Shown here in pieces: positions 9,626 to 55,180 of a stretch of DNA of 55,389 nt. How positions within the stretch are numbered: position 1 is the first letter of the stretch; each line of letters starts with the position of its first letter. Location of the stretch: contig CAIQON010000252.1 of NCBI GenBank assembly GCA_903873475.1, forward strand, positions 1-55,389, written 5' to 3'. The translations under genes and the position numbers were made by a program. The DNA comes from an uncultured bacterium (GTDB taxonomy: Bacteria > Pseudomonadota > Gammaproteobacteria > Burkholderiales > CAIKXV01). Below the pieces are notes generated by a model, which saw only the letters and a list, made by a program, of their open reading frames with translations, was not told where the DNA came from and ran no database searches.

Positions 9626-10591
9626 CTACTCCGCGACTATGCCGGACTCCTTGACCACCTTCCCGTAGCGCTCGATCTCGCGTCGGATGAATGCCGTGAA
9701 CTCGGCCGGGGAACTCGCCACCACCTCGCCACCCTGGGCGGCGATGCGCTGGCGCATGTCCTTCGTGGTCAGTGCCGCCACGGCCTGCTCGGACAATCTG
9801 CCGAGCACCTCGCGCGAAAGGCCACGCGGCCCGACCAGGCCATACCAGGCCTGAGACTCATAGCCGGGAAGGCCAGCCTCGGCAACGGTCGGCAGGTCCG
9901 TCCACGCCGCATTGCGACGGGGAGAAGTGACGGCCAGCGCACGCACCCGGCCGCCGGTCACCTGCTCCGGCGAGGTGGGCTGGATGATCATCATGTCGAC
10001 ATTGCGCGCCATGAGGTCGGTGAGACCGGGTGCGCCGCCCTTGTAGGGCACATGGTTGACCTGCAGCCGGCCCTGCCAAGCAAACAGGGCGCCTGCGAGG
10101 TGCTGCGAGGAGCCGATGCCGCCGGAGGCATAGCTCATCGCGCCCGGCTTGCTCCTCGCCAGCGCGAGAAGATCCTTCAGGCTGGCAGCAGGCACGCCGG
10201 GATGCACCAGCACCAGCTGCGCGAAGGTCGCCCCGAGGCTGATCGGCGTGAAGTCGCGTTCGGTATCGTAGGGCAGCTTTCGATAGATCAGCGAGTTGAT
10301 CGCATGCCCGATCGCCACATAGAGCAGCGTGTATCCGTCCGGGCTCGCCTTCGCCGTCATCTCGCTGGCGATGATGCCGTTGGCACCGGGACGGTTGTCG
10401 ACGATCGCCGTCTGGCCCCATGCGTTCGACATCTGTGACGCGACCACGCGGGCCATGATGTCGGTCGTACCCCCGGGCGCGAACGGAACCAGCATCCTGA
10501 TCGGACGAACGGGGAAGTTCTGCGGCTGCTGCGCGTGCACCTGTGCCGCGCCCAGGACCAGCAGCGCAGCGACGCCGGCGGCGGCCTTCAT
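9626..10591 (-). CDS. TTT substrate-binding protein (Bug/TctC family)
   Basis: Signal peptide, FPVRPIRMLVPFAPGGTTDIMARVV, IVDNRPGANG, HVPYKGGAPG, PTVAEAGLPGYES. Confidence 0.95.
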   Translation of the reverse strand: MKAAAGVAALLVLGAAQVHAQQPQNFPVRPIRMLVPFAPGGTTDIMARVVASQMSNAWGQTAIVDNRPGANGIIASEMTAKASPDGYTLLYVAIGHAINSLIYRKLPYDTERDFTPISLGATFAQLVLVHPGVPAASLKDLLALARSKPGAMSYASGGIGSSQHLAGALFAWQGRLQVNHVPYKGGAPGLTDLMARNVDMMIIQPTSPEQVTGGRVRALAVTSPRRNAAWTDLPTVAEAGLPGYESQAWYGLVGPRGLSREVLGRLSEQAVAALTTKDMRQRIAAQGGEVVASSPAEFTAFIRREIERYGKVVKESGIVAE

Positions 10592-11466
10592 GCCGCCACC
10601 GCTGCAGCGACAGCCTCGTCCACCACATGCCCGGACGGCGTACCCATCACCGTCGTGCGCTCCATGTGCCGGCGCAGCGACGGGTCGTAGTCACCGAGGG
10701 CGACATGCATCGTGCAGCGGTTGTCCCAGATCAGGATGTCGTCGGGCCGCCACTGGTGGCGATAGACGAACTGAGGCCGGCTGGCATGGCGGATCAGGTA
10801 GTCGATCAGCGGGCGGCTCTCTTCCTCGGTCATTCCTTCGAAGGACTTCACCTTCTCGCCGATGTACAGCGCCTTGCGGCCGGTCTCGGGATGCACCCGC
10901 ACCACCGGTTGCGCCACGGGCGGATTGAGCCGGCGGTTCTCCTTCTCCCACTCTGGTGCGACCCCTGCGTTCTTGCGCTCTGGCCGATGCACGCCGTGCA
11001 GGTCTGCGATCAGCTTCTTCATGCCGGCGGACAGCGCTTCATAGGCGGCATACATGTTCGTGAACATGGTGTCCCCACCGACCGGGGGCACCTCCACGCC
11101 GCGCAGCAGCGATCCGAGCGAGGGCACCAGCGTGAACGACATGTCCGAATGCCAGAGCTGCCCTGTGTAGCGCGAGTTCGACGGTTCGCCGTTGGCCTGC
11201 GGCAGATTGGTCACCATCAGCAGTTCGGGATACTCCGGATGGCGGTCGCGAGGCAGCGAATCGTGGCGATCGAGCTCGCCGAAACGGCGGCTGAACTCGA
11301 TGTGCTGCTCGCGGGTGATCTTCTGCCCGCGCAGCAGCAGCACGCCATGGTCCAGGAAGGCGCGATAGATGCCGCCGAACTCGGATTCGGACAGCGGCCT
11401 GTTCAGGTCGATGCCGACCACCTCGGCGCCGAGCGCATAGGAAAGCGGACGCGTTTCAACGGTCAT
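10588..11466 (-). CDS. TauD/TfdA family dioxygenase
   Basis: LWHSDMSF and DILIWDNRCTMHVALGDYDPSLRRHMERTTV match 2-OG/Fe(II) ligands; overlaps the following Bug gene by 4 nt. Confidence 0.93.
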   Translation of the reverse strand: MTVETRPLSYALGAEVVGIDLNRPLSESEFGGIYRAFLDHGVLLLRGQKITREQHIEFSRRFGELDRHDSLPRDRHPEYPELLMVTNLPQANGEPSNSRYTGQLWHSDMSFTLVPSLGSLLRGVEVPPVGGDTMFTNMYAAYEALSAGMKKLIADLHGVHRPERKNAGVAPEWEKENRRLNPPVAQPVVRVHPETGRKALYIGEKVKSFEGMTEEESRPLIDYLIRHASRPQFVYRHQWRPDDILIWDNRCTMHVALGDYDPSLRRHMERTTVMGTPSGHVVDEAVAAAVAA

Positions 11467-11618
11467 GCCGGCTCCTCCGGAGGATGCGGCCGGCTGGCTG
11501 CCGGCTCGTCGTGTGGGAAAAGTCTACCGGTGAATAGTACGTTCAAACACCCCTGCGAGCGCCTGAGCGCCACGGCCTCGAGGACGCGAGCGTCGCGCCA
11601 GCCGATCCACACTTCGAC

Positions 11619-12268: not shown

Positions 12269-12360
12269 GATCAGCTTTCCGGTCGCCAGACAAGTAAGTC
12301 GAATGGTAAGACCTTGAGCATCAGGGTTCAAGGTGCCTGGCTGTCTACCGGACTGCGCTC

Positions 12361-13374
12361 GTGTGCGGCCCGGCGTGCGATCATCTGCAGGGCATGGTGA
12401 CGCCGCGTACAGCACCGCGTGTCGCCACGGATCAACTGGCGACCGGCGCGCCGGGAAAAGGATCGGATGTCGCATCGGATGCTCCCGAGTTGACGCTTCT
12501 GCTTGCTATCGCCTCGGCGTTCGCCTTCGCCTGCGCGATGATCGCGAGCAACGTCGGCCTGCGCCACATGAGCGCCCGTGCCGGGGTGACGGTGAGCGTG
12601 CCGTCTGCAGCGGTGCTGTTCTGGCTGGCGCTGCCGGCGTTCATCGATCCGGCACTGGCGGTGGCGCCGATCAGCGCGCTGGGGATATTCCTCGCGATCG
12701 GGCTGTTCTTCCCGGCAGCGGTGACGCTGCTGGTGTTCGAGTCCAACGCCCGGCTCGGGCCGACGATCGCCGCAACCGTGTCCTGCACCGCACCGCTGTT
12801 CGCGGTGGCGGCCGCGGTGCTGCTGCTGGGCGAAGTGCTGGATCTGCGCCGCGCTGCGGGCACACTGGCTGTGGTCCTCGGCATCGCTGTGCTGTCGACC
12901 GCCGGAAACGCATCGAAGGCCGCTCGGCCGGGCGCGGCCCACGCGGTGGACGGACGCGGCATGGTGCTCGCGCTCGGTGCGGCGATGCTGCGGGCGGCCG
13001 CGCAGATCCTGCTCAAGATCGGCTTCGTGTTCTGGCCCAGCCCTCATGCCGCGATCCTGGCCGGCTATACGGTGTCGGCTGCGGTGATCCTGATTGCCTC
13101 GCGCTTGCTCGCCAGACGCGCACCGATCGTGCGTACCCGGCGCGGCATTCCATGGTTCATCCTGGCGGGGGTGTGCAATGGTTCGGCGATGCTGCTGATG
13201 TACGCTGCGCTGGTGGACGGCGAGGTGAGCCTGGTGGCACCGATCGTGGCCGGTTATCCGCTGTTCACCCTGCTGTTGTCAGCGCTGTTTCTGGGCGACG
13301 AGCGGCTGGCAGGCCGACACCTGCTCGGTGTCGCGATCACCGTGGCCGGTGTGGCACTTCTCGCTTCGCGCTGA
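12361..13374 (+). CDS. EamA/DMT family transporter (exact start uncertain)
   Basis: About ten hydrophobic helices; two halves, each ending in ...LLLGE.../...LFLGDERL...G(V)AITVAGVALLA. Confidence 0.85.
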   Translation: MCGPACDHLQGMVTPRTAPRVATDQLATGAPGKGSDVASDAPELTLLLAIASAFAFACAMIASNVGLRHMSARAGVTVSVPSAAVLFWLALPAFIDPALAVAPISALGIFLAIGLFFPAAVTLLVFESNARLGPTIAATVSCTAPLFAVAAAVLLLGEVLDLRRAAGTLAVVLGIAVLSTAGNASKAARPGAAHAVDGRGMVLALGAAMLRAAAQILLKIGFVFWPSPHAAILAGYTVSAAVILIASRLLARRAPIVRTRRGIPWFILAGVCNGSAMLLMYAALVDGEVSLVAPIVAGYPLFTLLLSALFLGDERLAGRHLLGVAITVAGVALLASR

Positions 13375-14007: not shown

Positions 14008-14014
14008 TTGACGC

Positions 14015-14730: not shown

Positions 14731-15717
14731 ATGCCACGACTCCGTCGTTCACTGATCGCGATCGTCGCCGGCGCGGCGACCGCGGGCCTGCTGGCCGCCT
14801 CCGGGGCCGACGCCCAGGCCTGGCCGGCCAAGCCACTGCGGGTGGTGGTGCCCTATCCGCCCGGCGGGGCGAACGACATCGTCGCGCGCGCACTGCAGCC
14901 CGCGCTGGCCGCAGCACTCGGCCAGCCGGTCACCGTCGAGAACCGTGGCGGTGGCGCCACGCAGATCGGCACCGAGGCGGTCGCGCGCGCCGCGCCCGAC
15001 GGCTACACGCTGCTCCTCACCAACATCGCGCTGGGCGCCAACCCCGCCCTGTTCGCGAAGATGCCCTACGACACCACGCGCGACCTCGCGCCCATCACCC
15101 TGATCAGCACCGTGCCGCTGGTGCTGATCGCGCATCCTTCGCTGGGCGCGCGCAGCATCGCAGAGTTCGTCGCGCGCGCGCGCGCGAAGCCGGGCGCGAT
15201 CAACTACGCGTCGGCGGGCAACGGCAGCGCGAATCACCTGGTGATGGAGATGTTCCGGGCCTCCACGGGCATCGACGTGGTCCACGTGCCCTACAAGGGC
15301 TTCGGCCCGGCGATAAGCGACCTGGTCGCGGGCAATGTCACCGCAGCCTTCGGCACCACGCTCGCGAGCCTGCCGCAGGTGCGTGCGGGCAAGCTTCGCG
15401 CGCTGGGCCTCTCCAGCGCGAGCCGCTCGCCGGTGGCGCCCGAGGTACCTACCATCGCCGAGTCGGGCATCGCCGGCTTCGACGTGAACGAGTGGCAGAT
15501 GCTGCTCGCCCCGGCCGGCACGCCCGCCTCGGTGGTCGAGCGGATGCAGCGCGAGGTCGCCGCCGCGCTGCAGGTGTCCGAGGTGCGCGCGCGCTTCACC
15601 GAACTGGGCGCGACGCCGGTGGGCTCGTCGACCGCCGATGCGCAGGGCTTCCTGCGCGGCGAGATCGCGCGCTGGGCCGAGCTCGCGAAGAAGGTCGGCA
15701 TCAAGCCGCAGGACTGA
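14731..15717 (+). CDS. TTT substrate-binding protein (Bug/TctC family)
   Basis: MPRLRRSLIAIVAGAATAGLLAASGADAQAWPAKPLRVVVPYPPGGANDIVARAL...HVPYKGFGPA. Confidence 0.95.
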   Translation: MPRLRRSLIAIVAGAATAGLLAASGADAQAWPAKPLRVVVPYPPGGANDIVARALQPALAAALGQPVTVENRGGGATQIGTEAVARAAPDGYTLLLTNIALGANPALFAKMPYDTTRDLAPITLISTVPLVLIAHPSLGARSIAEFVARARAKPGAINYASAGNGSANHLVMEMFRASTGIDVVHVPYKGFGPAISDLVAGNVTAAFGTTLASLPQVRAGKLRALGLSSASRSPVAPEVPTIAESGIAGFDVNEWQMLLAPAGTPASVVERMQREVAAALQVSEVRARFTELGATPVGSSTADAQGFLRGEIARWAELAKKVGIKPQD

Positions 15718-15723: not shown

Positions 15724-17157
15724 TCAAGAGCCCCGTCTGCGGCACGCCCGCAACAGCACGCCGACATCGGGCAGCCCGTCCACCTGCCACAGCTGGTCGA
15801 GCAGCCGCCGCGCCCGCGCCGCCGGCAGCACGGTGCCCGCCAGCGCGAGGAACTTCGCCTCCAGTTGCGCGTCGCTCACCGGGCGGCCCGGACTCCCGGT
15901 CGCATGTTCGACCGCCTGACGCAGCACCCGCCCGTCGGCCAGCGACAGTTCGACCTCGCAGCCGTGCTGCGGCATCGCAGGGTCTGGCGCCATCTCGATC
16001 AACCGCCGCACGCCGGCCACCACTGGGTCATGCACCCGCGCATCGGTGAACTGCGCGGGCAGGCAGGTGCCATCGACGAACGCTGCCGCCATCGCATGCT
16101 GGAACGACAGGCGCGCGGCCAGGCCATCGGCGGGCTCGGGACGGCTCTCCAGCCGGATCGCGAGCGGGTTCACCCGTCCGCCGATACGCACCACCTGCGA
16201 AGGCTGCACGCCGGGCTGCGTGCGCAGCGCGAGCATCGCATCGACCATCGGGTGGCTGAGGATCGCCGATGCGTAGGGCTTGGGCGCGTTATCCATTAGC
16301 AGCCAGCGCTCGCCGAGGCCGTCGACGATCGCCGCCGCGTCGAACGCCCCGGCGGCAAAGGCCTGCGCGAAGCCGTGCGGCCCTTCGAGGATGCGCCGGG
16401 TGCTGCTGAAGCCGCGCTGCGCCATCAGCGCGGCGAGCAGCCCGGACTGCGCAGCGCGCGCCGGGTGGAACGCCTTGGTCATCGTGCCGAAGGTCTCGCG
16501 CAAGCCGCCGGCCTGGGTACCGGCGAGTCCGAAGGCGACGGCCATCGTCCCGGCATCCAGCCCGAGCAGGCGGCCCGCAGCGGCCGCGCTGCCGAACACC
16601 CCGGCGGTGCCGGTCATGTGCCAGAGCGCGCCATGGCGCATCTGCTGGATCGACAGCGCGACGCGGCAGCAGGCTTCCAGGCCGAGCACCGTGGCGGCGA
16701 GGAAGGCACGGCCGTCCGTGCCGCGGTCTTCGGCCAGTGCCAGCGCGGCCGGGATCGTCGGCGCGGAGGGATGCAGCACCGTCGGGAAGAAGGTGTCGTC
16801 GAAATCGTCCAGGTGGGCGAGCAGCCCGTTGGCGAGCGCCGCATGCATCAGCGGCACCCGCCGGCCGGCGCCGATCACCGTCGCGCGCGGCCGGCCGCCC
16901 TCGGCCTGCAGCACGTCGAGCAGCATCGGCAGCGCCGGGTCCTGGGTCGCGTGCAGCGCCACGCCGAACAGGTTCACCAGGCAGCGGCGGCCCTCGTGCA
17001 GCACGGCCTCGGGGATCGCCGCGGCGTCGGCCTGCGCGACGAAGGCGGCGAGCCGTGCGGTGACGCCCTCGGCTGCTCCGTCTGCCGCCGCGCCCGTGTT
17101 GCCGCCCGTGTTGCCGCCCGTGTCGCTGCCGGTGTCGCTGCCGGTGTCGCCGCCCAT
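15724..17157 (-). CDS. MmgE/PrpD family protein
   Basis: ANGLLAHLDDFDDTFFP..., GLRETFGTMTKAFHPARAAQSGLLAALMAQRGFSST, KPYASAILSHPMVDA. Confidence 0.92.
   Translation of the reverse strand: MGGDTGSDTGSDTGGNTGGNTGAAADGAAEGVTARLAAFVAQADAAAIPEAVLHEGRRCLVNLFGVALHATQDPALPMLLDVLQAEGGRPRATVIGAGRRVPLMHAALANGLLAHLDDFDDTFFPTVLHPSAPTIPAALALAEDRGTDGRAFLAATVLGLEACCRVALSIQQMRHGALWHMTGTAGVFGSAAAAGRLLGLDAGTMAVAFGLAGTQAGGLRETFGTMTKAFHPARAAQSGLLAALMAQRGFSSTRRILEGPHGFAQAFAAGAFDAAAIVDGLGERWLLMDNAPKPYASAILSHPMVDAMLALRTQPGVQPSQVVRIGGRVNPLAIRLESRPEPADGLAARLSFQHAMAAAFVDGTCLPAQFTDARVHDPVVAGVRRLIEMAPDPAMPQHGCEVELSLADGRVLRQAVEHATGSPGRPVSDAQLEAKFLALAGTVLPAARARRLLDQLWQVDGLPDVGVLLRACRRRGS
17093..17152. repeat. 12-bp tandem repeat, 5 units, inside the MmgE/PrpD N-terminus
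   Basis: cccgtgttgccg x2, cccgtgtcgctg, ccggtgtcgctg, ccggtgtcgccg; encodes a (D/N)TG(G/S) repeat on the minus strand. Confidence 0.9.
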
Positions 17158-18351: not shown

Positions 18352-19311
18352 GTGCAGCGAGGGTGGACGAAAGGCATGCGGGCAGCAGGCGTGTGGATGG
18401 CAGGTACCGTCCTTGCCGCCGCCGCGGTTGGCCTGTGCATGGCTGCCGCGCCAGCGATGATCCCTGCCACTGTCTCCACCACTGCCACCACCGCCGCGGC
18501 GATCGACCTGGTCGACGACCGCGGCCGCACGGTGCGCCTGGCCGCGCCGGCCCGGCGCATCATCAGCCTGCTGCCGTCATCGACCGAAACCGTCTGTGCA
18601 CTCGGGGGCTGCGACCGGCTGGTCGGCGTCGACCGGTTTTCGAACTGGCCGCCGCAGCTCGAGCGTCTGCCGCGTCTGGGTGGGCTCGAAGACGCGCAGG
18701 TCGAGCGCATCGTCGCGCTGAAGCCGGACCTCGTGCTGGCCACCTCGTCGGCGCGCGTGCTCGAACGGCTGGACGCGCTGCGCATCCCGGCGCTGGCACT
18801 CGAGCCGAAGACGCTCGACGACCTCCGGCGCGTGCTCGACGCGGTGGCCACGGCCCTCGGCGACCCCGCTGCTGGCGAAGCCGAATGGCGCAGGCTGTCG
18901 GCGCGCATCGATGCCGCCGCACGGCGCGTGCCGCCATCGATGCGCGGACAGCGCGCCTACTTCGAGGTGTCGTCCGCGCCGCATGCGGCCGGCGCAGGTT
19001 CGTTCGTCGGCGATGTGCTCGCACGCGTGGGCATGGGCAACATCGTGCCGGCGTCGATGGGCGCGTTCCCGAAGCTCAGCCCCGAGTACATCGTGCGTGC
19101 GCAGCCGCAGGTGATCCTCGCGAGCGACGCGGCCCTGCGCGAGATGCCGAAGCGGCCGGGCTGGCCGGCACTGAGCGCACTGCGCGATCGCCGTACCTGC
19201 GCGTTTCCCCCGGGCGCATACGACACGATCGTGCGGCCCGGCCCGAGGCTGGCCGAGGCCGCCGACCTGCTGGTCGAGTGCCTGCGCGCGCTCGACGAGG
19301 CGCGCCGATGA
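18352..19311 (+). CDS. btuF: Cobalamin/metal-chelate ABC transporter substrate-binding protein
   Basis: ARRIISLLPSSTETVCALGGCDRLVGVDRFSNWP...LKPDLVLATSS; followed by overlapping permease and ATPase genes. Confidence 0.85.
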   Translation: MQRGWTKGMRAAGVWMAGTVLAAAAVGLCMAAAPAMIPATVSTTATTAAAIDLVDDRGRTVRLAAPARRIISLLPSSTETVCALGGCDRLVGVDRFSNWPPQLERLPRLGGLEDAQVERIVALKPDLVLATSSARVLERLDALRIPALALEPKTLDDLRRVLDAVATALGDPAAGEAEWRRLSARIDAAARRVPPSMRGQRAYFEVSSAPHAAGAGSFVGDVLARVGMGNIVPASMGAFPKLSPEYIVRAQPQVILASDAALREMPKRPGWPALSALRDRRTCAFPPGAYDTIVRPGPRLAEAADLLVECLRALDEARR

Positions 19312-20312
19312 GGGTGGCGAGCGGGCGCGACGGCGGTGCAACCCTGCGCTTCGCGCTGCTGCTCACGGCCGCCAGCGCAGCGCTGCTGCTCGCCGGCCTC
19401 GCAGCCGGCAGCGACGGCTGGTCGCTGGCATGGGCGGACGAATGGATGCTGGTGAGCGAGATCCGGGCGCCGCGCTCGATCGGCGCCTGGCTCGCCGGTG
19501 CGCTGCTGGGCTTCGCCGGGGCCGTGGCGCAGGGCCTGTTCCGCAATCCGCTGGCAGACCCCTACCTGCTGGGGTCCGCAGCCGGTGCCGGCCTGGGTGT
19601 CGTGCTGGTGCTCGCCGCCGGCGGCGCCGCCGGCGCGTCGATCGGGCTGGCGGCGGCGGGTGCATTGCTGCAGGCGGGCCTGGTCGGCGCGGCCTTCGCA
19701 GGCGCCCTCTGCGGCGTCGGGCTCACGTTGCTGCTGGCGCGCGGCGCCGCCCGGCCGATGTCGCTGCTGTTGTGCGGCGTGGTGGTCGGCGTGCTGCTGA
19801 CCGCGCTGTCCGACCTGGTGATGCTCGCCTCCCCCGAGGCGATGCGCGGCAAGCAGATCTTCCTGCTGGGCAGCACCGGCTTCCTCGGATGGACCAGCAC
19901 GGCCGTGCTGGCCGCCGTGCTGGCCACGGTGCTGCCGGCCGCGATGCGGGTGTCGCGCGCGCTCGATGCGCTGGTGCTCGGCGAGGCCAGTGCCAGGAGC
20001 CTTGGCGTACCGCTGCCACAGGTACGCCTGCTGCTGGTGGGCACGATGGCCATGGCCACCGGCGCCGCCGTCGCCCAGGCGGGGCTCATCGCCTTCGTCG
20101 GCCTGGTCGCGCCGCACCTCGTACGCCGCTGCCTGAGCGTCGCACACGGGCCGCAGCTCGCGCTGTCGGCGATGGCCGGCGGCGTGCTGCTGCTCGCCAG
20201 CGACATCGCGGCGCGCACCCTGGTCGCGCCGCAGGAACTGCCGGTAGGCGTGCTGACCGCGGTGCTCGGCGGCATCTACCTGCTGGCACTGCTGCACCGG
20301 AGGCAGGCGTGA
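19308..20312 (+). CDS. btuC: FecCD-family ABC transporter permease
   Basis: EIRAPRSIGAWLAGALLGFAGAVAQGLFRNPLADPYLLGSAAGAGLG; GLIAFVGLVAPHLVRR; overlaps the upstream gene. Confidence 0.92.
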   Translation: MRVASGRDGGATLRFALLLTAASAALLLAGLAAGSDGWSLAWADEWMLVSEIRAPRSIGAWLAGALLGFAGAVAQGLFRNPLADPYLLGSAAGAGLGVVLVLAAGGAAGASIGLAAAGALLQAGLVGAAFAGALCGVGLTLLLARGAARPMSLLLCGVVVGVLLTALSDLVMLASPEAMRGKQIFLLGSTGFLGWTSTAVLAAVLATVLPAAMRVSRALDALVLGEASARSLGVPLPQVRLLLVGTMAMATGAAVAQAGLIAFVGLVAPHLVRRCLSVAHGPQLALSAMAGGVLLLASDIAARTLVAPQELPVGVLTAVLGGIYLLALLHRRQA

Positions 20313-21112
20313 ACGACACGACGACGCCGCTGCAGGCCCGTGGCATCGGCGTCACCCTCGGCGGCGTGCGCGTGCTCGACGAGGTGTCCCTCGCGCTGCC
20401 CGCCGGTTGCTGGACCGCGATCGTCGGTCCGAACGGCGCCGGCAAGAGCACGCTGCTGTCGGTGCTGGCCGGCCTGCGCCGCCCCGACGATGGACAGGTA
20501 TCGGTCGGCGGCGACCCCATCGAGACACTCGCCGCCCGCGAGCGCGCGCGACGCATCGCCTGGCTCGCGCAGCAGGGCGAGGCCGACGGTGAACTGGCGG
20601 TGCGCGAGATCGTCGCGCTGGGACGGCTGCCGCACCACGGGCTCTTCGGCGCCCCCGGTGCCGACGACCAGCGCGCGGTCGACCTCGCGCTCGAGGCGGC
20701 CGGTGCGACGGCCTTCGCCGGGCGCCGGCTGGGCGAACTCTCCGGCGGCGAGCGCCAGCGCGCGCTGCTGGCGCGGGTGCTGGCGGTGCAGGCGCCGGTG
20801 GTACTGCTCGACGAACCGACCACCCACCTCGACGCTCCTCACCAGCGCGCGGTGCTCTGCTGCATCACGGGGCTGGTGCGACAGCAGGCGGCGGTCGCTG
20901 CGGTCCTGCACGATCTCACGCTTGCGCTGGCCGCAGACCGCGTGGTGGTGATGGACCAGGGACGCATCCGTGCAACCGGGAGCCCCGGAGACCCCGCGCT
21001 GCATGCGGCGATCGAGGCCGTGTTCGAACAGGCGATCGTCATCGAGCCGATCGGCCGCACCGGCGTCGACGGCACCGCCGACACGCGCTGGGTCGCAGTC
21101 CCGGCGCCCTGA
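20309..21112 (+). CDS. btuD: ABC transporter ATP-binding protein
   Basis: GTG start; Walker A GPNGAGKST, signature LSGGERQRALLARVLA, Walker B VVLLDEPTTHLD. Confidence 0.93.
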   Translation: MNDTTTPLQARGIGVTLGGVRVLDEVSLALPAGCWTAIVGPNGAGKSTLLSVLAGLRRPDDGQVSVGGDPIETLAARERARRIAWLAQQGEADGELAVREIVALGRLPHHGLFGAPGADDQRAVDLALEAAGATAFAGRRLGELSGGERQRALLARVLAVQAPVVLLDEPTTHLDAPHQRAVLCCITGLVRQQAAVAAVLHDLTLALAADRVVVMDQGRIRATGSPGDPALHAAIEAVFEQAIVIEPIGRTGVDGTADTRWVAVPAP

Positions 21113-37900: not shown

Positions 37901-37970
37901 GCGGCCGACGTTAGCAGATCGAGAGCCAGTCGACGCGGCGCCAGCACCGGGGCTCGAATACCATCGTGGC

Positions 37971-38513: not shown

Positions 38514-38583
38514 CTACGGTGTATTGACGCTCCGGAGAAGCGTGCCCTAGCATGATTTCTCCAGCCCTCACGGGCATCGCCGA

Positions 38584-39558: not shown

Positions 39559-39602
39559 CTGGTCCCGGGCTGTACGGGTCCCCGGAAGGACGGCGTCAGG
39601 TG

Positions 39603-40049: not shown

Positions 40050-40091
40050 GCAATTATCAGCCTGTAAGGTCGCACGTCAAGGGTTCTTCGC

Positions 40092-41156: not shown

Positions 41157-41251
41157 AATCTCACACCCTCCTGTCCCTCCCACTCTGTGGCACAGGGCTT
41201 GCTGTTGATCTGTACCCACCTGTGGTTGTCCCAACCTAAAGGAGTCGGTCG

Positions 41252-42808: not shown

Positions 42809-42860
42809 GCCTGAACCTCACATCTGAAAGAGTCGGAACCAGCCCTCGGAGCGTACCCAA

Positions 42861-43859
42861 ATGGCCATCGATTTTCATGCCTACTATCAGCCGCTCGCAT
42901 TCCTCGACCGGTTGAGGCAGCGCACGTCCTACCCGCGAATCGAAGCCGTCGACGGGCGCGAGATCGTCTGGTCGGCGCCCGGCGTCGGCCGTCCGCTGAG
43001 GCCGGAACAGAACGACATCGCAGGGCGGCTGGCGATGATGGACGCCGCGGGCATCGATACGCAGATCCTGCGGCTGCAGAACGTCAGCGGCATCGATGCG
43101 CTTGAGATCGGCGAGGGTCGCGAGGTCGCGCGCGCGGCGAACGAGGAACTGTCTGGGCTCTCCGCGAAGCACCCGACACGGTTCGTACCGTTCGCGTCAG
43201 TGCCGATGCGCGACATCCGGTCGGCCATCGAGGCACTCGAACATGCGGTGCTTCGGCTTGGACACTGTGGGGTCGGCATTTCGGTGCAGACCGGTGGCGT
43301 GTTCGTCGACCATCCGTCCGTTGCACCGTTCCTCGATCGCGTCGAGTCGCTCGGCGTGACGCTGCTGCTGCTGCCCAACCATCCGTCGAGCCTGGACAGC
43401 GTCCTCGCGCCGCATGGCTGGCTGACCGGCTCGTTCGGCTTCCAGACCGACATCAGCGTCGCGGCCTTGCGCCTGCTCTACGGTGGCGCGCTGGACAGCC
43501 GCCCGCGGCTGCGCGTAATCCTGGCCAACCTCGGCGGTGTGCTGCCCTTCCTCACCGAGCGGCTGGAAGAGTACTGGCGCCGGGTCCACGCGGGCGACCG
43601 CAGCGTCGCGATGCCGCCACCAGTGGAAGCGCTGCGCCGCTTCCACTACGAGACCGCATCCGGCGACCCAAGGGCGATACGCTTGGCGGCAGAGGTACTC
43701 GGCACCGACAGGCTGGTATTCGGCAGCGACTATCCGTCATTCGAGATGGCCCGCGGGGTGGCCAACGTGCGCGCCTCGGGACTCGACGAAACCGGCATCG
43801 AACAGATACTGCGCGGCAACGCAAGGCCGTTGATCGTGCGTTCCGGGGCAGAAAGCTAG
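42861..43859 (+). CDS. Amidohydrolase family protein (amidohydrolase 2/ACMSD-like)
   Basis: MAIDFHAYYQP...RFVPFASVPMRDIRSAIEALEHAV...GTDRLVFGSDYPSFEMARG. Confidence 0.88.
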   Translation: MAIDFHAYYQPLAFLDRLRQRTSYPRIEAVDGREIVWSAPGVGRPLRPEQNDIAGRLAMMDAAGIDTQILRLQNVSGIDALEIGEGREVARAANEELSGLSAKHPTRFVPFASVPMRDIRSAIEALEHAVLRLGHCGVGISVQTGGVFVDHPSVAPFLDRVESLGVTLLLLPNHPSSLDSVLAPHGWLTGSFGFQTDISVAALRLLYGGALDSRPRLRVILANLGGVLPFLTERLEEYWRRVHAGDRSVAMPPPVEALRRFHYETASGDPRAIRLAAEVLGTDRLVFGSDYPSFEMARGVANVRASGLDETGIEQILRGNARPLIVRSGAES

Positions 43860-43873
43860 GCGACGGAGGGCGC

Positions 43874-44863
43874 CTACTCCGCTGGCTTGCGCATCGTCCG
43901 GATCGCCTCGCTCACTCGTCTCGCATCCACCTCGAGGAACTTCTGGAACTCCGGCGAATCCTGGAAGGCCACCGGCGTCAGCACCCTGGACATCGCCGAC
44001 CGGTATTCCTCGCCGGTGACCACCTGGCGCACCGCGTCGCGCAACTGGCGCACGATCGGCTCGGACGTACCGCGCACTGCGAAGACCCCCGTCCAGTTGT
44101 AGAACTCGGCCTTGTAGCCCAGTTCGATCAGCGTCGGCACATCGGGGTAGAGCGCGTTGCGTTCGGCACCCCAGGTGCCGTAGACCCGCACCTTGCCCGC
44201 CTTCACATGCGGTGACGACAGCGCCGGGGACGCAGCCAGCATGGTGGCATGCCCACCGAGTACCGAGGCCATCGCCGGCGCGCCACCCACGTACGGCACG
44301 TCCTGCAGCCGGATGCCGGCTGCGGTGGCGAAGATCTCCATCGCCGTATGCTGCGGGGCATACAGGCCCGAGTGCGCATAGAACATCTCGCCCGGCCGCT
44401 TGCGTGCGGCGGCGACCAGTTCCTTCACCGATCGCCACTGTGCCGCCGGGTTGGCCACCAGCAGCGGCGGATCGGCGGTCAACCGCGCGATCGGGATGAA
44501 CTGCTCGCGGGTGAAGGCCTGCGGCCGCTTGAACAGGGCATCGACCTCCGGCACCGTGCTGAACGACGAGATGGTCACCAGCAGCGTGTAGCCGTCGGGC
44601 TTCGATGCCGCAGCGGCAGCGGTGCCGATCGCACCCGCGGCCCCTGGCCGGTTGGTGACGATGACCGGCTGCTTGAACAGGCGGTCGAGCTGGTTCGCCA
44701 GCGGCCGGGCGACGATGTCGCCCGCGCCACCGGGCGGGAACGGCACGATCAGCGTGATCGGCCGGGACGGCCAGGTCTCCTGGGCGTGCACCAGGCCGGC
44801 GATTGCGGGGGCAAGTGCGATCAACAACGTGCGCAGTGCTGCGGCGCCGGTTCTCACGTTCAT
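43874..44863 (-). CDS. TTT substrate-binding protein (Bug/TctC family)
   Basis: WPSRPITLIVPFPPGGAGDIVARPLANQLDRLFKQPVIVTNRPGAAGAIGTAAAAASKPDGYTLL. Confidence 0.95.
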   Translation of the reverse strand: MNVRTGAAALRTLLIALAPAIAGLVHAQETWPSRPITLIVPFPPGGAGDIVARPLANQLDRLFKQPVIVTNRPGAAGAIGTAAAAASKPDGYTLLVTISSFSTVPEVDALFKRPQAFTREQFIPIARLTADPPLLVANPAAQWRSVKELVAAARKRPGEMFYAHSGLYAPQHTAMEIFATAAGIRLQDVPYVGGAPAMASVLGGHATMLAASPALSSPHVKAGKVRVYGTWGAERNALYPDVPTLIELGYKAEFYNWTGVFAVRGTSEPIVRQLRDAVRQVVTGEEYRSAMSRVLTPVAFQDSPEFQKFLEVDARRVSEAIRTMRKPAE

Positions 44864-45896: not shown

Positions 45897-46050
45897 GTGT
45901 GGAAGACCTGTCGAAGGATTGCTTTGGGAGGATGGTACAGAGACGTACCGGGAGCCTGCAGGAAAAAGCAAGACGCAGGCCAACGACGCAGCCAGCGCCT
46001 CACATCGTCTGGCAGGATGCCTTTTGACCCCCAGACACAGGAACACACCG

Positions 46051-46438
46051 ATGCGCCGCCTCTCCATTTTCGTCGCGCTGTGCCTGTTTGCCCCAAACGG
46101 TTTCGCGCAGGCCTGGCCAAACCGCCCGATGCGCCTGGTCATGCCGTTCGCCCCTGGCGGTGGTGCCGACATTGCCGGACGGCTGATCGCCCAGGAACTG
46201 GGCGAGGTCCTGAAGCAGCCTGTGCTGGTCGAGAACCGCGCCGGCGCGGGCGGCACGCTTGCACTCGACAACGTCGCCAAGTCGGCGGCCGACGGGTATT
46301 CGATCGCTTTCGGCCATGTCGGTGGCATCGCGATCGCGCCCGCGTTGTTCAAGACGCTGCCGTTCGACCCGAATCGCGACCTGATCCCGGTCACCCTCGC
46401 CGTCAACGGCCTGAGCGTGCTGGTGGTCAACCCGGCTG
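46051..46438 (+). pseudogene. N-terminal portion of a Bug/TctC receptor, truncated at an inversion-like junction
   Basis: MRRLSIFVALCLFAPNGFAQAWPNRPMRLVMPFAPGGGADIAGRLIAQELGEVLKQPVLVENRAGAGGTLALDNVAKSAADGYSI...LSVLVVNPA, then homology is lost. Confidence 0.85.
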
Positions 46439-46646
46439 CCCGGATGATCTTGCCCCACTTCGCGATCTCCGCCTCGATGAATGCCCGGAACTGCTCGGGC
46501 GTGTTGCCAACCGGCCCTGCGCCTTCCGCCAGCAGCTTTCCCCTGATCGACGGCTGCCGGAGCAGTGCGACCACCTCTTGATGCAGTCGCATCACGACGG
46601 ACCGTGGCGTGCCACGCGGGGCGACCAGCCCATACCAGGTGCCCGA
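46438..46646 (-). pseudogene. C-terminal portion of a Bug/TctC receptor on the opposite strand
   Basis: Minus strand: GTWYGLVAPRGTPRSVVMRLHQEVVALLRQPSIRGKLLAEGAGPVGNTPEQFRAFIEAEIAKWGKIIRAAG, a typical Bug C-terminus, abutting the plus-strand N-terminus. Confidence 0.85.
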
Positions 46647-47287: not shown

Positions 47288-47934
47288 ATGCCGAGATTCC
47301 TCACTGCAATGACGTTCGCCGTTGCCGCCCTGCAAGGCACGAACACCCTCGCCCGTCGCCAGGGCAGAGCCCGATGGCTACACGCTGGGGGTGACGAACC
47401 TCACGACGATGTCGCTGGTGCCGGTGATCGCGCCGAAGACGCCCTACCACCCGATCAAGGACTTCACCCACATCGCCTACATTGCAGGCGCACCGGTGAT
47501 GCTCGCGGTGCATCCGAGCACGAAGGTGAATACGGTGGCCGAGCTCATCGACTACGGCAAGACCGTCGGCAAGCCGCTGACCTTCGCCTCGGCGGGCGTC
47601 GGTTCGGACGGCCACGTGATGGGCGAAGCCATCGCCGCAGCGATTGACGGACTACCCGGACGTACCGACGTTCCGGGAACTGGGTCACCCGTCGCTGGTG
47701 AGTTCGACGTGGTGTGCGCTGTCTGCGCCGGCAGGCTTCCCGCGGCCGGTTGCCGTGCGTCTGCATGCCGAGCTGTCCACCTTCCTCGCCCGGCCCGAGA
47801 TGCAGAAGCAGCTCAGCCGCTACGGGCTGCTGCCCGAGCCGATGACCATGGAGGCATTCAACCGCTTCGTGTCTAGCGAGAGTGCGCGCTGGCGGCCGAT
47901 GATCGAGGCGGCGAACCTGATCGTGAAAGAGTAG
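47288..47934 (+). pseudogene. Degraded Bug/TctC receptor with internal deletions and frameshifts
   Basis: Signal-like MPRFLTAMTFAVAAL (frame A), then EPDGYTLGVTNLTTMSLVPVIAPKTPYHPIKDFTHIAYIAGAPVMLAVHPSTKVNTVAELIDYGKTVGKPLTFASAGVGS (frame B), then YPDVPTFRELGHPSLVSSTWCALSAPAGFPRPVAVRLHAEL (frame C). Confidence 0.88.
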
Positions 47935-49789: not shown

Positions 49790-50731
49790 ATGCTGAATCC
49801 ATCGAACACCCAGGCACACTGGCGCCCCACCCGCGAAGTCGAGTTCATCGTCGGCACGCCTCCGGGTGGCGGACAGGATCGTCCCGCACGCACCCTGATG
49901 CGCATCCTCGAGGCGACAAGGCTGGTCGATGTGCCGATCAAGCTCACCAACCTGCCGGGCAACGGCGGGGGCCACGCGTGGGATGCGTTGCGCGCGCGTG
50001 CCGGAGATCCGCACGTGCTGTCGATCAGCGCGCCGCCGTTGATGAGCAATCGTATCCTCGGCATCAGCGATTTCGACCATGCGGCGCTGACGCCGGTGGC
50101 GAACCTGTTCACCGAGTACCTGGCATTCGTGGTGGCAGCCGATTCATCCATCAGGGATGCGACTGCCTTGATCGCGATGCTCGCCGCCGATCCTGGTGCG
50201 ATCAGGATTTCCCTCGCCACCGCCATCGGCAGCACCAGCCACATCGCGATGGGCCAGCTGCTCACGCACGTGGGCGCCGATCCGCGCAAGCTCGACCTGC
50301 GCGTGTTCGAGTCCGCGCCCTACGCGGTGGACGACGTGGCCGCGGGTAATGCGCAGCTCGGCGTGATCTCGGCAGTCAGCGCACGCAAGGCGCTCGAGGC
50401 CGGCACGGTGCGCGCGCTGGTGGTGTCCTCGCCCGCGCGCCTGTCGGGGGTGTTCGCCGACGCACCGACATGGACGGAGCTGTCGGTGCCATGCGTCATC
50501 GGACAGTGGCGTGGCGTGCTGGCCGCATCGGGCATCGGCGCCAGCCAGCTGGCCTGGTGGACGCAGGCGCTCGCCGCCGCCGTCGAGCACCCGCAATGGC
50601 AGGACGAACTGGCCGCCCACAACTGGACCGACCACTTCATCACTGGCGGCACGCTGCAGTCGTTCCTCGACGACGAACGCACCTTCACCCGCGACATGCT
50701 GAAGGCGCTGGGCCTGGTCAGTCCGCCTTGA
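49790..50731 (+). CDS. Divergent Bug/TctC-like protein without an evident signal peptide
   Basis: MLNPSNTQAHWRPTREVEFIVGTPPGGGQDRPARTLMRIL...VDVPIKLTNLPGNGGGHAWDAL...; Bug-like fold order, N-terminus polar. Confidence 0.75.
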   Translation: MLNPSNTQAHWRPTREVEFIVGTPPGGGQDRPARTLMRILEATRLVDVPIKLTNLPGNGGGHAWDALRARAGDPHVLSISAPPLMSNRILGISDFDHAALTPVANLFTEYLAFVVAADSSIRDATALIAMLAADPGAIRISLATAIGSTSHIAMGQLLTHVGADPRKLDLRVFESAPYAVDDVAAGNAQLGVISAVSARKALEAGTVRALVVSSPARLSGVFADAPTWTELSVPCVIGQWRGVLAASGIGASQLAWWTQALAAAVEHPQWQDELAAHNWTDHFITGGTLQSFLDDERTFTRDMLKALGLVSPP

Positions 50732-51680
50732 TGTTGCGTTCCTGGACGATCTTCTTCCAGGCGGCGATTTCCGATGTCAACAACGTATTGAACTGCTCCG
50801 GCATCATCTGCAGTTCGGGTACCGCGCCGTTGGCGATGATCACGCTGGTGGCATCGTCGGACGCCATGCCCTTGCGGAGTTCGTCGCCCAGCCGATGGAC
50901 GATGGCTACGGGCGTCTTCGCAGGCGCCAGTACGCCCCACCAGGTCGCCACGTCGTAGCCGGGCACGCCGGCTTCCGCGACCGTGGGCAACTCGGGCATG
51001 AAGGCCGCACGTTTCGCGGTGGTAACCGCCAGCGCACGCAGCCGTTCCGCCTTGATCATCGGGCTGACCGCAGGTGTGCTGGAAAACACGATGGGCACTT
51101 CGCCCGCCACGGCAGCAGCGACGGCGGGGGCAATGCCCTTGTAGGGCACGTGCACCAGGGGTACCTTCGCGTAGCTCGCGAACAGTTCCCCGGCGAGATG
51201 CGGGATGGTGCCGGCGCCTGCACTGCCGAAGTCGAGCTTGCCCGCCCGGGCCCGTCCCAGCGCGATCAGGTCTTTCACCGAGCGCACGGGCAACGACGGA
51301 TGCACCGCCACCAGCAGCGGCCCACGGCCCAGCATCGCGACGCCGGTGAGATCCGTGTTCGGATCGAAGGGCAGCTTCGGATAGATCGCGGGGTTGATGA
51401 CGTAGCTCACGGTCACCAGCAGCAGCGTGTATCCATCCGGCTCGCTGCGCGCGACCGCGTTGGTGGCGATGGTCTGTCCCGCACCGGGACGATTCTCGAC
51501 CACGACGGGCTGGCCCAGGCGCTTCTGCAGGTGCTCGGCGGCGAGCCGGCCCATGATATCGGCGGAACCGCTGGGTGCCGTGGGGACCACCATGCGCAGG
51601 GGCTTGGCCGGGAACGGCTGCGCAGCAGCATGCGTGAGCGGAAAGGTGATGGCGAAGATGGCGATCGCGAGATGGCGCAT
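50718..51680 (-). CDS. TTT substrate-binding protein (Bug/TctC family)
   Basis: FPAKPLRMVVPTAPSGSADIMGRLAAEHLQKRLGQPVVVENRPGAGQTIATNAVARSEPDGYTLL. Confidence 0.95.
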   Translation of the reverse strand: MRHLAIAIFAITFPLTHAAAQPFPAKPLRMVVPTAPSGSADIMGRLAAEHLQKRLGQPVVVENRPGAGQTIATNAVARSEPDGYTLLLVTVSYVINPAIYPKLPFDPNTDLTGVAMLGRGPLLVAVHPSLPVRSVKDLIALGRARAGKLDFGSAGAGTIPHLAGELFASYAKVPLVHVPYKGIAPAVAAAVAGEVPIVFSSTPAVSPMIKAERLRALAVTTAKRAAFMPELPTVAEAGVPGYDVATWWGVLAPAKTPVAIVHRLGDELRKGMASDDATSVIIANGAVPELQMMPEQFNTLLTSEIAAWKKIVQERNIKAD

Positions 51681-52022: not shown

Positions 52023-53147
52023 ATGACCGCCGCACCGCATTCACCCCCGTTCCGCGCCGACCAGGTCGGCAGCCTGCTACGGCCCGCCCATCTCATCGCA
52101 GCGCGCGAGCAGCGCCGCAAGCGCCTGCTGTCGGACGACGAACTGCGTGTCATCGAAGACGATGCCATCCGCGAAGTCGTCGCGCGGCAGGAAGCGGCCG
52201 GCCTGCGCGTGGTGAGCGACGGCGAGTTCCGCCGGCAGAACTACATCGTCGATTTCTTCCGCAAGGCGCTCGGCTCGGGTGGCCTGAAGGCGGAGCCGGG
52301 CGACTTCGTCCATCGCAACGCGAAGGGCGACACCATCCCGGTCGAGAAGCTGGTCATCCACAAGCCGTTGCGCTGGACCGGCCCGATCTTCGCCGACCAC
52401 CTCGCCTTCGTGCGCTCGATCACGCAGTGCACGCCGAAGATGACGGTGCCCTCGCCGATCGTGCTGCACTTCATGGGCGGCAACGATGCCATCCTGCGCG
52501 ATGCATACACCTCGCTCGACGGCTTCTGGGCCGACGTGATCGAGGTCTATCGCAGCGAGTTCGCCGCGCTGCATGCAGCCGGCTGCACCTACCTGCAGAT
52601 CGACGAGACCTCGCTGGTGAAGTTCGGCGACCCGGAGATCCGAGCCGTGCTTGAACGCCGCGGCGAAGACTGGCGCACGCTGGTCGAGACCTATGTGACG
52701 GTGATCAATGCGGTGATCGCCACCGCACCGGCGGGCATGACCGTCGGCATCCACGTCTGCCGAGGCAACCGCCTCGGCTTCTGGCAGGCCGATGCCGGCT
52801 ACGAGTTCATGGCCGACCAGTTGTTCCGACGGCTCAACGCGCGCTTCTACTTCCTCGAGTTCGACAGCCCGCGCGCCGGCCCGATCGACGCCCTGAAGTA
52901 CATGCCGGAGGACAAGACCGTGGCGCTTGGCCTGGTGACCACCAAGTCGCCAGACCTCGAAGACCCGGAGATGCTGCGCGCGCGGCTCAAGGAGGCTTCT
53001 GCCTTCGTCTCGATGGACCGGCTGTGCCTGAGCCCGCAGTGCGGTTTCTCCGGCAATGTCGGCAACACCGTGATGACGGCCGACCAGCAGTTCGCGAAGC
53101 TGCGCCTGCTGGTCGAGACCGCGCGGTCCGTGTGGCCGGACGCCTGA
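52023..53147 (+). CDS. Cobalamin-independent methionine synthase (MetE C-terminal domain)-like protein
   Basis: FRADQVGSLLRPAHLIAAR...VVSDGEFRRQNYIVDFF...YLQIDETSLVKFGDP...IHVCRGN...LSPQCGFSG; candidate Zn ligands H/C and C. Confidence 0.88.
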   Translation: MTAAPHSPPFRADQVGSLLRPAHLIAAREQRRKRLLSDDELRVIEDDAIREVVARQEAAGLRVVSDGEFRRQNYIVDFFRKALGSGGLKAEPGDFVHRNAKGDTIPVEKLVIHKPLRWTGPIFADHLAFVRSITQCTPKMTVPSPIVLHFMGGNDAILRDAYTSLDGFWADVIEVYRSEFAALHAAGCTYLQIDETSLVKFGDPEIRAVLERRGEDWRTLVETYVTVINAVIATAPAGMTVGIHVCRGNRLGFWQADAGYEFMADQLFRRLNARFYFLEFDSPRAGPIDALKYMPEDKTVALGLVTTKSPDLEDPEMLRARLKEASAFVSMDRLCLSPQCGFSGNVGNTVMTADQQFAKLRLLVETARSVWPDA

Positions 53148-53149
53148 GC

Positions 53150-54172
53150 ATGGCAGCACGCGCACTGCTGCATGCCACGACGCTCGGTGCGAATGCACTC
53201 GTCGTACTTGCAGTTGCAGTTGCAATTGCAGCCGCAGCCGCAGTCGCAGCCGCCGGCACGGCCGTGGCGCAGGCCTATCCGGCCAAGCCCATCCGCCTGA
53301 TCATTCCGTTTCCGCCGGGCGGCGGCAGCGATGTCACCGGGCGCATCGTCGCGATGGCGATGAGCGAACGCCTCGGCACGCAGATGGTCGTCGACAACCG
53401 CGCCGGTGCCGGCGGCATCATCGGCACCGAGCTGGCGGCCAATGCCGCGCGCGATGGCTACACGCTGCTGGTGGCCTCGCTGGCCCATGTGGTCAGCCCG
53501 TGGCTGTACGACCTCAAGGGGCGTTTCGACCCGATCCGGTCGTTCGCGCCGGTGGCCATCGTGGCGGGCAGCCCGATCGTGCTGGTAGTGCATCCCGGCG
53601 TGCCCGCCCGGTCGGTTGCGGAACTGCTCGCCCTCGCCAGGAAGAATCCGGGCAAGCTGCAGTACGCCTCGGCGGGCGTGGGCAGCGTCAGCCACCTCGC
53701 GGCCGAGCTGTTCAACTACACCGCGAAGGTGGACATGCTGCACGTGCCCTACAAAGGTGCAGGCGCGGCGACCGTCGATGTCGTCGCGGGGCATGCGAAC
53801 CTCACGTTCGGCGGCCTGCTGGCCACCGTGCCGCATGTGCGCGCCGGCCGGCTTCGTGCGCTGGGGGTGGGATCCCTGCAACGCAATCCGATCCTGCCGG
53901 ACGTGCCCCCGATCGCCGAGGCCGGCGTCCCCGACTACGAAACGGTGAACTGGTTCGGGCTGCTCGCGCCCGCAGGCACCCCGGCGGCCCTCATCGAGCG
54001 CCTGCATCGGGAAGTCACGGCAGTGCAGGAACTCCCCGAGATCCGGAAGCAGCTCGACAACGACGGCGCGACGGTGCTGCGGATGACGCCGCCCCAGTTC
54101 GGCGCCTACATGGCTGCCGACATGGAGAAGTGGGGTCGCGTGGTGAAGGCCGCCGGCATCAAGGCGAACTGA
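53150..54172 (+). CDS. TTT substrate-binding protein (Bug/TctC family)
   Basis: AQAYPAKPIRLIIPFPPGGGSDVTGRIVAMAMSERLGTQMVVDNRAGAGGIIGTELAANAARDGYTLL; starts 3 nt after the MetE-like stop. Confidence 0.95.
   Translation: MAARALLHATTLGANALVVLAVAVAIAAAAAVAAAGTAVAQAYPAKPIRLIIPFPPGGGSDVTGRIVAMAMSERLGTQMVVDNRAGAGGIIGTELAANAARDGYTLLVASLAHVVSPWLYDLKGRFDPIRSFAPVAIVAGSPIVLVVHPGVPARSVAELLALARKNPGKLQYASAGVGSVSHLAAELFNYTAKVDMLHVPYKGAGAATVDVVAGHANLTFGGLLATVPHVRAGRLRALGVGSLQRNPILPDVPPIAEAGVPDYETVNWFGLLAPAGTPAALIERLHREVTAVQELPEIRKQLDNDGATVLRMTPPQFGAYMAADMEKWGRVVKAAGIKAN
53210..53251. repeat. Imperfect hexanucleotide repeat (GCAGTT/GCAGCC) x7 in a signal-peptide coding region
   Basis: gcagtt gcagtt gcaatt gcagcc gcagcc gcagtc gcagcc read directly. 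Confidence 0.85.
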
Positions 54173-54199
54173 CCGCGACCCCGAGCGCCACCCGCAGGA

Positions 54200-55180
54200 T
54201 CAGGCGATCACTTCCACCTTCGCTCGCCGCGCCACCGCGCTCCAGGTAGTGATCTGCGATTCGATAAGCTTGTTGAACTCCGCCCCGGTCACCGGGCTCT
54301 TGCGCGGCAGGGTCTGCAGGTCGTCCAGCCGCTTCATGATGTCCGGGCGCGCGAGGATTTCCGGCATCAGCGAGGTGAGCCGCTGCGCGATCGGCGCCGG
54401 CAGGCCCTTCGGCGCCGACATGCCAAGCCACTGCGAACCGGTGAGCGAGGGGAAGCCCGCCTCGGCGAAGGTCGGGATATCGGGCAGGCCGGGCAGCCGC
54501 GCGGGCGTGGACACGGCCAGCGCGCGCAGCGAACCGCCCCTGAGCTGGTCGACGTTGGTCGTGATCGGATCGAGCACGCTGTCGATCTGTCCGCCCAGGA
54601 GCTCGGCCAGCGCCGGTGCACTGCCCTGGTAGGGCACATGGTCGTGCATGGGTGCATTGCCTTCGATCTTCAGCATCTCGCCGAACAGGTGGTTCGCCGA
54701 ACCGATGCCCGAAGAGCCGTAGCGCACCGGCTTCACACGGGCCGTCGCGACGTAGTCGGCAAGCGTCTTGAACGGCGACTGCGGACGCACCAGCAGCACC
54801 ATCGGCGCCTCGACCAGCATCGCCATGTGGGTGAAATCGGCGATCGCGTCGAACGGCATCTTGTTGCGCGTGGCCGTCGCATAGACATGCACCGATGCAT
54901 GGCTCACCAGCAGCGAGTAGCCGTCCGGGTTCTGGCGCGCCGCGAAATCGGTGCCGACCAGGCCGCCCGCGCCGGGCCGGTTCTCCACCAGGACGGTCTG
55001 CGACAGGGCCTGCTGCAGGTGCGGCGCGATCAGCCGCGCCACGGTATCGACGAGGCCGCCGGGCGGAAACTGGCAGATCAGCCGGATCGGGCCGCGCGTG
55101 GGCCAGGCCTGCGACTGGGCGTTAGCCCAGGGGGCGATGAGGGATGCCGCGCCGGCGGCGAGCAGATCACGACGCTTCAT
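54200..55180 (-). CDS. TTT substrate-binding protein (Bug/TctC family)
   Basis: QAWPTRGPIRLICQFPPGGLVDTVARLIAPHLQQALSQTVLVENRPGAGGLVGTDFAARQNPDGYSLL. Confidence 0.95.
   Translation of the reverse strand: MKRRDLLAAGAASLIAPWANAQSQAWPTRGPIRLICQFPPGGLVDTVARLIAPHLQQALSQTVLVENRPGAGGLVGTDFAARQNPDGYSLLVSHASVHVYATATRNKMPFDAIADFTHMAMLVEAPMVLLVRPQSPFKTLADYVATARVKPVRYGSSGIGSANHLFGEMLKIEGNAPMHDHVPYQGSAPALAELLGGQIDSVLDPITTNVDQLRGGSLRALAVSTPARLPGLPDIPTFAEAGFPSLTGSQWLGMSAPKGLPAPIAQRLTSLMPEILARPDIMKRLDDLQTLPRKSPVTGAEFNKLIESQITTWSAVARRAKVEVIA

Follow-up and report, generated by a model that had tools for sequence, protein, structure and literature searches.

Orphan Bug/TctC receptors far outnumber TctBA permeases in a lineage of uncultured Burkholderiales and may share them

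The TctCBA citrate transporter of Salmonella is encoded as a complete tripartite operon of receptor (TctC) and permease (TctB and TctA). Expansions of the same receptor family, called Bug or orphan TctC, are known in Bordetella, Cupriavidus, Comamonas and Variovorax. These PF03401 receptors mostly have no TctAB neighbours and often lie beside catabolic genes, and there are few TctAB per genome. Why dozens to hundreds of orphan receptors are kept is a question that has stood since 2003. The published record is 434 TctC in the 8.2-Mb genome of Rhodoplanes sp. Z2-YC6860, which were called in 2018 the most abundant gene family of any prokaryotic genome (PMC5994714) and were still termed the largest set in 2024 (PMC11452294). 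In Comamonas, the terephthalate operon includes the gene for TphC, which relays to a TpiBA encoded elsewhere (PMC8556258). In Variovorax, 1 of 130 TctC is required for growth on 3,3'-thiodipropionate (PMC8102459). A 2018 review saw no evidence for shared permeases yet and leans to signalling (PMC5812351). Here we consider a 55.4-kb stretch of DNA (the window), one whole contig of a 4.53-Mb metagenome-assembled genome (MAG), G000, from an uncultured Burkholderiales bacterium. It carries 14 receptors of this family and neither TctA nor TctB. The kind of expansion is already known; its scale and the evidence are new.

Pfam scans of the open reading frames (ORFs) in the window place 13 intact receptors in PF03401 with 178-244 bits, where the curated cut-off is 27 bits, and a divergent fourteenth with 50 bits. 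The original prediction, made from the DNA letters, had named exactly these 14. It had also named two broken copies. Their decay is real, but the pieces number three, since what had been taken for one copy at 46051-46646 is two remnants in opposite orientation according to tblastn. The receptors and remnants are as follows.

9626-10591, minus strand: orphan Bug/TctC receptor, 215 bits; 4-bp overlap with a TauD-type dioxygenase gene (operon)
14731-15717, plus strand: orphan Bug/TctC receptor, 237 bits
17165-18178, minus strand: orphan Bug/TctC receptor, 239 bits
23284-24285, minus strand: orphan Bug/TctC receptor, 244 bits; 55 bp downstream of a 715-aa ORF at 24341-26488
27285-28343, plus strand: orphan Bug/TctC receptor, 241 bits; 1-bp overlap with a PhyH-type dioxygenase gene
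31067-32050, plus strand: orphan Bug/TctC receptor, 212 bits
33419-34447, plus strand: orphan Bug/TctC receptor, 231 bits; its syntenic orthologue in genome G009 lies directly behind TctB-TctA
41252-42229, plus strand: orphan Bug/TctC receptor, 237 bits; within a 5.4-kb segment at 38472-43871
43874-44863, minus strand: orphan Bug/TctC receptor, more divergent, 178 bits
44931-45896, minus strand: orphan Bug/TctC receptor, 218 bits; upstream of receptor 43874 on the same strand
46012-46437, plus strand: receptor remnant, N-terminal piece; 40-51% identity to intact receptors (tblastn); PF03401 positions 3-87, 66 bits
46425-46643, minus strand: receptor remnant, C-terminal piece, head-on against 46012-46437; about 50% identity (tblastn)
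47355-47916, plus strand: receptor remnant, N-terminus missing, with a frameshift; tblastn matches in two frames; PF03401 positions 34-128, 64 bits
49790-50731, plus strand: divergent receptor without signal peptide, 50 bits over profile positions 16-274 of 274
50718-51680, minus strand: orphan Bug/TctC receptor, 242 bits
53150-54172, plus strand: orphan Bug/TctC receptor, 232 bits
54200-55180, minus strand: orphan Bug/TctC receptor, 201 bits

A hydrophobic N-terminus and a typical cleavage motif, judged by eye, are found in 13 of the 14. Receptor 49790 is the only one without a signal peptide in the predicted frame, where its N-terminus reads MLNPSNTQAHWRPTREVEFIVG. It is distantly related to the other receptors (at most 32% identity to any TctA-linked receptor) and is possibly a cytoplasmic or relic form. 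Profile searches of the whole genome for TctA (PF01970) and TctB (PF07331) find both on other contigs and neither on that of the window, as had been claimed, so the window receptors stand alone where the Salmonella receptor has its permease encoded alongside. Fourteen receptors in 55.4 kb is dense even for this genome, since a background of 60-65 per Mb would give 3.4-3.6 (Poisson P about 1e-5 to 3e-5). Receptors are clustered throughout G000, however, with a variance/mean of 1.8-1.9, so receptor-rich regions exist elsewhere in the genome too and the window is not unique.

The excess of receptors over permeases is not confined to the window. The PF03401 search scored 150 of the 427 candidates in G000, and all 150 are far over the cut-off, the weakest with 228 bits. 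Our counts for G000 and two further genomes, G005 and G295, rest on such search lists and on about 2.2 Mb of sampled stretches, on which a profile built from the window receptors was run in all six frames. Contigs C1-C53 of G000 have 60 receptors per Mb (95% interval 35-89). The sampled DNA holds 61 full-length receptors and 31 of the 150 listed ones, which gives a total of about 295 (about 237-392, binomial error). This is about 65 per Mb and about 7% of all genes, at about 0.885 predicted genes per kb. TctA has seven matches, but some are pieces of one gene, so there are about five TctA and five TctB against about 295 TctC. TctC thus far outnumbers TctA, and no matching number of TctAB exists anywhere in the genome. 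With the ORFs all placed in PF03401 as well, neither of the two results that the original prediction had said would overturn it has come about. The same holds across the genus. All ten genus-mates have 236-576 receptor candidates and 3-6 TctA matches, so that all 11 genomes share the state of high receptor and low TctA number. It must be noted that raw candidate numbers are inflated about 1.4-fold: G000 has 427 candidates for about 295 receptors, and G295 has 995 for about 716. On contig C45 of G000 (L044:15234-16699) a TctA frame is in two pieces, through a frameshift or an assembly error; a relative at least 70% identical is intact in G005 (L138).

G000 has the most candidates in a sample of 398 genomes of its phylum. 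Among 399 genomes of the order the top counts belong to another family, with 995 in G295, 707 in G266 and 693 in G138. G349, of the same family as G295, resembles it by candidate count, as do G266 and G138. In G295 we found 143 full-length receptors in 1.14 Mb sampled (loci L051-L090 and L231-L250), and with partial ones they take up 12% of the bases. Extrapolation to 5.7 Mb gives 716 receptors (bootstrap 95% interval 544-895), or about 126 per Mb and about 15% of predicted genes, with three TctA matches. Only 0.06% of bootstrap resamples fall under 434. No paralogues in G295 exceed 73% identity, so a mixture of strains does not account for their number. The Rhodoplanes expansion is also massive and genome-wide, made mostly of single genes of old divergence, and comes with nine full TTT (tripartite tricarboxylate transporter) operons (PMC5994714). 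It differs in being in an alphaproteobacterium with a larger genome and 53 receptors per Mb. The receptor density of G000 is therefore at or above that of the record genome, and both the estimated number and the density are higher in the betaproteobacterial G295. If about 716 is confirmed, G295 would surpass the published record, and it probably does so in receptor number and in share of genes. At one gene in seven, its receptors may form the largest gene family so far known from any prokaryote. We found no report in the literature of an expansion of such size in freshwater Betaproteobacteria. The host of the window is an uncultured, probably freshwater betaproteobacterium, because the relatives of its TctA loci (87-99% identical) come from MAGs of which most are named as Betaproteobacteria or Burkholderiales bacterium and several have isolate names that point to lakes or reservoirs; the habitat is read from those names.

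Since so few permeases accompany so many receptors, it is worth considering whether they are shared, as the original prediction had suggested. TctA is present in 43 of 43 receptor-rich genomes, in 2-15 copies (median 5). Its number is uncorrelated with that of receptors (Spearman 0.009, P = 0.96), while candidates vary tenfold. A permease that is always kept yet does not follow receptor number is the pattern a shared hub would give. Single permeases are also flanked by two or three receptors. The genus-core TctA operon has the order receptor-TctB-TctA-receptor in G002, G004, G005, G007 and G009 and on four named MAG contigs, some of which may come from these same species. On contig C38 of G000 (L115:4350-9441) the order is receptor-TctB-TctA-receptor-receptor, on one strand with short gaps and with three different receptors. 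We read this run as a natural operon of one permease and three receptors. In the family tree, TctA-linked and orphan receptors are interleaved, with 11 changes of state, at least six of which are forced by supported branches.

One slot in the window is found both with and without TctBA in sister species. The closest relative of receptor 33419 is the receptor behind TctA in G009 (88% DNA identity; C93:109346-110269). Read from coordinates and locus L029 only, the order on G009 contig 93 is an ATP-grasp gene (106765-109332), the receptor (109346-110269), TctA (110618-111871), TctB-sized and cupin-like genes, and an enoyl-CoA hydratase (114732-115500). The ATP-grasp and enoyl-CoA hydratase flanks are the same around 33419. 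In G000, G002, G005, G007 and G004 the slot has the receptor and no TctBA, and in G006 and G010 it has neither the receptor nor the ATP-grasp gene. An alanine dehydrogenase/PNT gene is present in the slot in G000, G002, G005 and G007 and absent in G004 and G009. On a two-gene genus tree a single gain of TctBA in G009 takes fewer steps than repeated loss. This polarization is weakly supported; the permease may have been gained once, with loss as the alternative. The TctA of this slot has no close orthologue (at least 70%) among the TctA sequences compared from other genomes. Even if the polarization is wrong, one receptor is kept both with and without an adjoining permease, whichever way the slot changed. 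The question of shared permeases can therefore be tested with defined gene pairs.

The receptors are old, and no window copy has its nearest relative beside it. The tree that the original prediction had called for does not put any window receptor nearest to another window receptor; the nearest relatives are found in other parts of the genome, or else in G005 or G009. The copies examined reach best identities of 44-50%, and we rejected local tandem duplication as the origin of the window copies. In the G000 sample the median identity to the best paralogue is 46% and no pair reaches 70%. The layout there is 45 single receptors, nine pairs and one run of four. The share of receptors that have a gene on the same strand no more than 60 bp away, to one side or both, is 66% in G000, 59% in G005 and 40% in G295, and in G000 and G005 these tightly packed partners are mostly not receptors. 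For other genes, 36-48% have such a same-strand downstream neighbour, so linkage of receptor and neighbour is of moderate strength in the genus and does not stand out in G295. The claim that each receptor lies next to different catabolic enzymes is borne out in the larger samples, where 128 receptor-adjacent genes match 162 Pfam families. The commonest are MmgE/PrpD (6), S15 peptidase/CocE-type hydrolases (6), amidase (5) and alpha/beta hydrolases (5); others are enoyl-CoA hydratase (ECH), AMP-binding enzymes, TauD, mandelate racemase, PrpF, CoA-transferase III and FAH. Tight pairs in the window join 9626 to TauD, 17165 to MmgE/PrpD, 27285 to PhyH, 53150 to a methionine synthase-like enzyme and 23284 to the unannotated 715-aa protein. 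At the equivalent place in G005 and G010 nothing matches segment 38472-43871, which carries receptor 41252, and its flanks adjoin each other. Receptor cassettes thus come and go between sister species.

An AlphaFold2 (AF2) model of receptor 33419, built from 106 relatives, has a mean pLDDT (predicted local distance difference test) of 90.7. It matches the ligand-bound terephthalate-binding protein (TBP) 8hka, AdpC 5oei, 2dvz and BugD 2f5x with a template modelling (TM) score, on the target, of 0.94-0.95, and 8hka, 5oei and 2f5x with a root-mean-square deviation of 1.4-1.5. The model thus has the Type II periplasmic-binding-protein fold of BugD and TphC, and the matches to ligand-bound structures suggest a fold suited to binding small carboxylates. 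Conserved sites across paralogues include P-F-x-P-G-G-x-x-D, G-x-G-S-x-x-H and H-V-P-Y-K-G. Open frames, signal peptide-like N-termini and conserved segments are maintained across the 106 proteins.

We argue that the orphan receptors rather likely share a few TctB-TctA permeases encoded elsewhere. In this scenario the periplasmic receptors would each capture a small organic acid, and many would be co-expressed with an enzyme that acts on that acid. Loaded receptors would pass their cargo to a handful of permeases, so that few pumps could serve hundreds of receptors. A new substrate would then require only a new receptor-plus-enzyme cassette and no new pump. Docking in trans onto TctBA, the ligands and the co-regulation are what we infer here. 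TphC and TpiBA are the closest precedent, with a receptor in a catabolic operon, a permease elsewhere and the same fold as 33419; there, ligand and permease are identified. The wider picture is a toss-up in our judgment: that this lineage uses the TTT family for hub-and-spoke import, in which a few promiscuous TctBA are the docking points for hundreds of receptor-enzyme cassettes (about 300 in G000, about 700 in G295), LysR and HisKA proteins are very few, and permeases come and go beside retained receptors. Three points weigh against sharing. From an operon with two or three receptors it follows only that one permease may serve that few, not sixty. Where TctBA is gained or lost in a slot, the orphan receptor could also be in a state in which it does no transport. 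Finally, the neighbour packing in G295 is no commoner than for other genes. Orphan receptors beside enzymes also provide ready substrate-enzyme guesses for freshwater dissolved organic matter; the neighbours would suggest sulfonates for 9626 and methylcitrate or related acids for 17165.

One can imagine that the receptors are mainly sensors, and that once loaded they contact histidine kinases, chemoreceptors or other regulators which switch on the adjacent enzymes. BctC acts in this way with BctDE in Bordetella, in Ralstonia eutropha 64.1% of the 154 receptors have a regulator nearby (PMC5812351), and no permease adjoins the orphans. G000 differs from R. eutropha in this respect. Only 15 LysR (PF00126) and 18 HisKA proteins are above cut-off. 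G005 has 21 LysR and 18 HisKA proteins, and G295, with an estimated 716 receptors, has 11 LysR and 19 HisKA. These genome-wide regulator counts cover the LysR and HisKA families. With so few, one dedicated kinase or LysR per receptor is impossible. In G000 some three LysR genes come within 1 kb of any listed receptor, and the 25 commonest families of the 128 receptor-adjacent genes include none of regulators. No kinase or response-regulator family appears among the scanned ORFs of the window and no HisKA match on its contig, which gives no sign of a BctDE-like two-component system beside the receptors. The original prediction had offered sensing as one of two roles, and as a general role we consider it improbable; few LysR and HisKA, TctA retained throughout without its number following that of the receptors, and a slot with and without TctBA make the genus an argument against the signalling lean of the review. 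It is somewhat easier to imagine, but still unlikely, that the orphans use ABC, TRAP or unrecognised permeases, or have no partner and are periplasmic buffers holding substrate for other carriers. In Rhodoplanes 41 of the 434 receptors are near ABC genes and 8 near TRAP genes (PMC5994714), and the window itself has a FecCD-type ABC importer (18376-21112) and an EamA-family transporter (12538-13374). However, ABC and TRAP families are not among the commonest of the 128 receptor neighbours, and TctA is never missing in the 43 genomes where receptors abound.

Another scenario is a duplication ratchet in which receptors, being cheap and secreted, grow in number while many of them do little or nothing. 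The three decayed pieces in 55 kb and the presence or absence of cassettes between sister species do speak of turnover. A ratchet predicts recent copies, though, and these are rare; the paralogues are old yet keep their open frames and conserved segments. We doubt this scenario about as strongly as the sensors. Lastly, the count could be an artefact of a contaminated, fragmented or redundant assembly. G000 is in 407 contigs with 5.7% estimated contamination, and the first-look candidate counts do exceed the true genes. But G005, which is cleaner (30 contigs, 98% complete, 1% contamination), is equally rich, with 417 candidates and 55 full-length receptors in 0.4 Mb sampled; its stretches were chosen non-randomly, so their density of 138 per Mb is not extrapolated. 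G+C is even over all unmasked G000 contigs, and there is no receptor pair of at least 70% identity in the G000 sample and none above 73% in G295. An artefact is highly improbable and this reading is largely refuted.

The partner and flanking genes of the window receptors are listed here.

10588-11466, minus strand: TauD/TfdA-type dioxygenase, operon partner of receptor 9626 (PF02668, 252 bits)
15724-17157, minus strand: MmgE/PrpD-family enzyme, 7 bp from receptor 17165 on the same strand (PF03972, 228 bits)
28343-29188, plus strand: PhyH-type dioxygenase, operon partner of receptor 27285 (PF05721, 74 bits)
32480-33292, minus strand: enoyl-CoA hydratase/isomerase, conserved flank of the slot with and without TctBA (PF00378, 219 bits)
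34451-35572, minus strand: alanine dehydrogenase/PNT-family protein (PF01262, 265 bits)
35687-38245, minus strand: ATP-grasp acyl-CoA synthetase-like protein, conserved flank of the same slot (PF13549, 193 bits)
52023-53147, plus strand: cobalamin-independent methionine synthase-like enzyme, 2 bp from receptor 53150 (PF01717, 69 bits; NF005085, 330 bits)

The 715-aa ORF upstream of receptor 23284 has a strong coding signal; the whole ORF has no NCBIfam match and its 504-aa sub-frame no Pfam match. The ABC importer amid the receptor array is of FecCD or BtuFCD type, with Peripla_BP_2, FecCD permease and ABC ATPase genes in succession. Short ORFs at 2840-3588 and 7648-7890 resemble, by eye, a VapB/FitA-type antitoxin and a PIN-domain toxin. 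No Rfam family is found in the window. Counting receptors by a DNA motif for P-F-x-P-G-G was dropped, as it catches just 13-46% of them, and the low mean G+C that the G000 contigs seemed to have came from masking (N) of those shorter than 3 kb. Several environmental MAGs (loci L153, L178, L185-L188 and L193) are deposited as Bordetella parapertussis, one of which is in the genus of the window by TctA identity (96%); these names look like automatic misassignment. The final 140 bases of the window (55249-55389) recur, 94-100% identical, in G009 and close to or at the ends of several G000 contigs, and are probably the end of a multicopy element where the assembly breaks.

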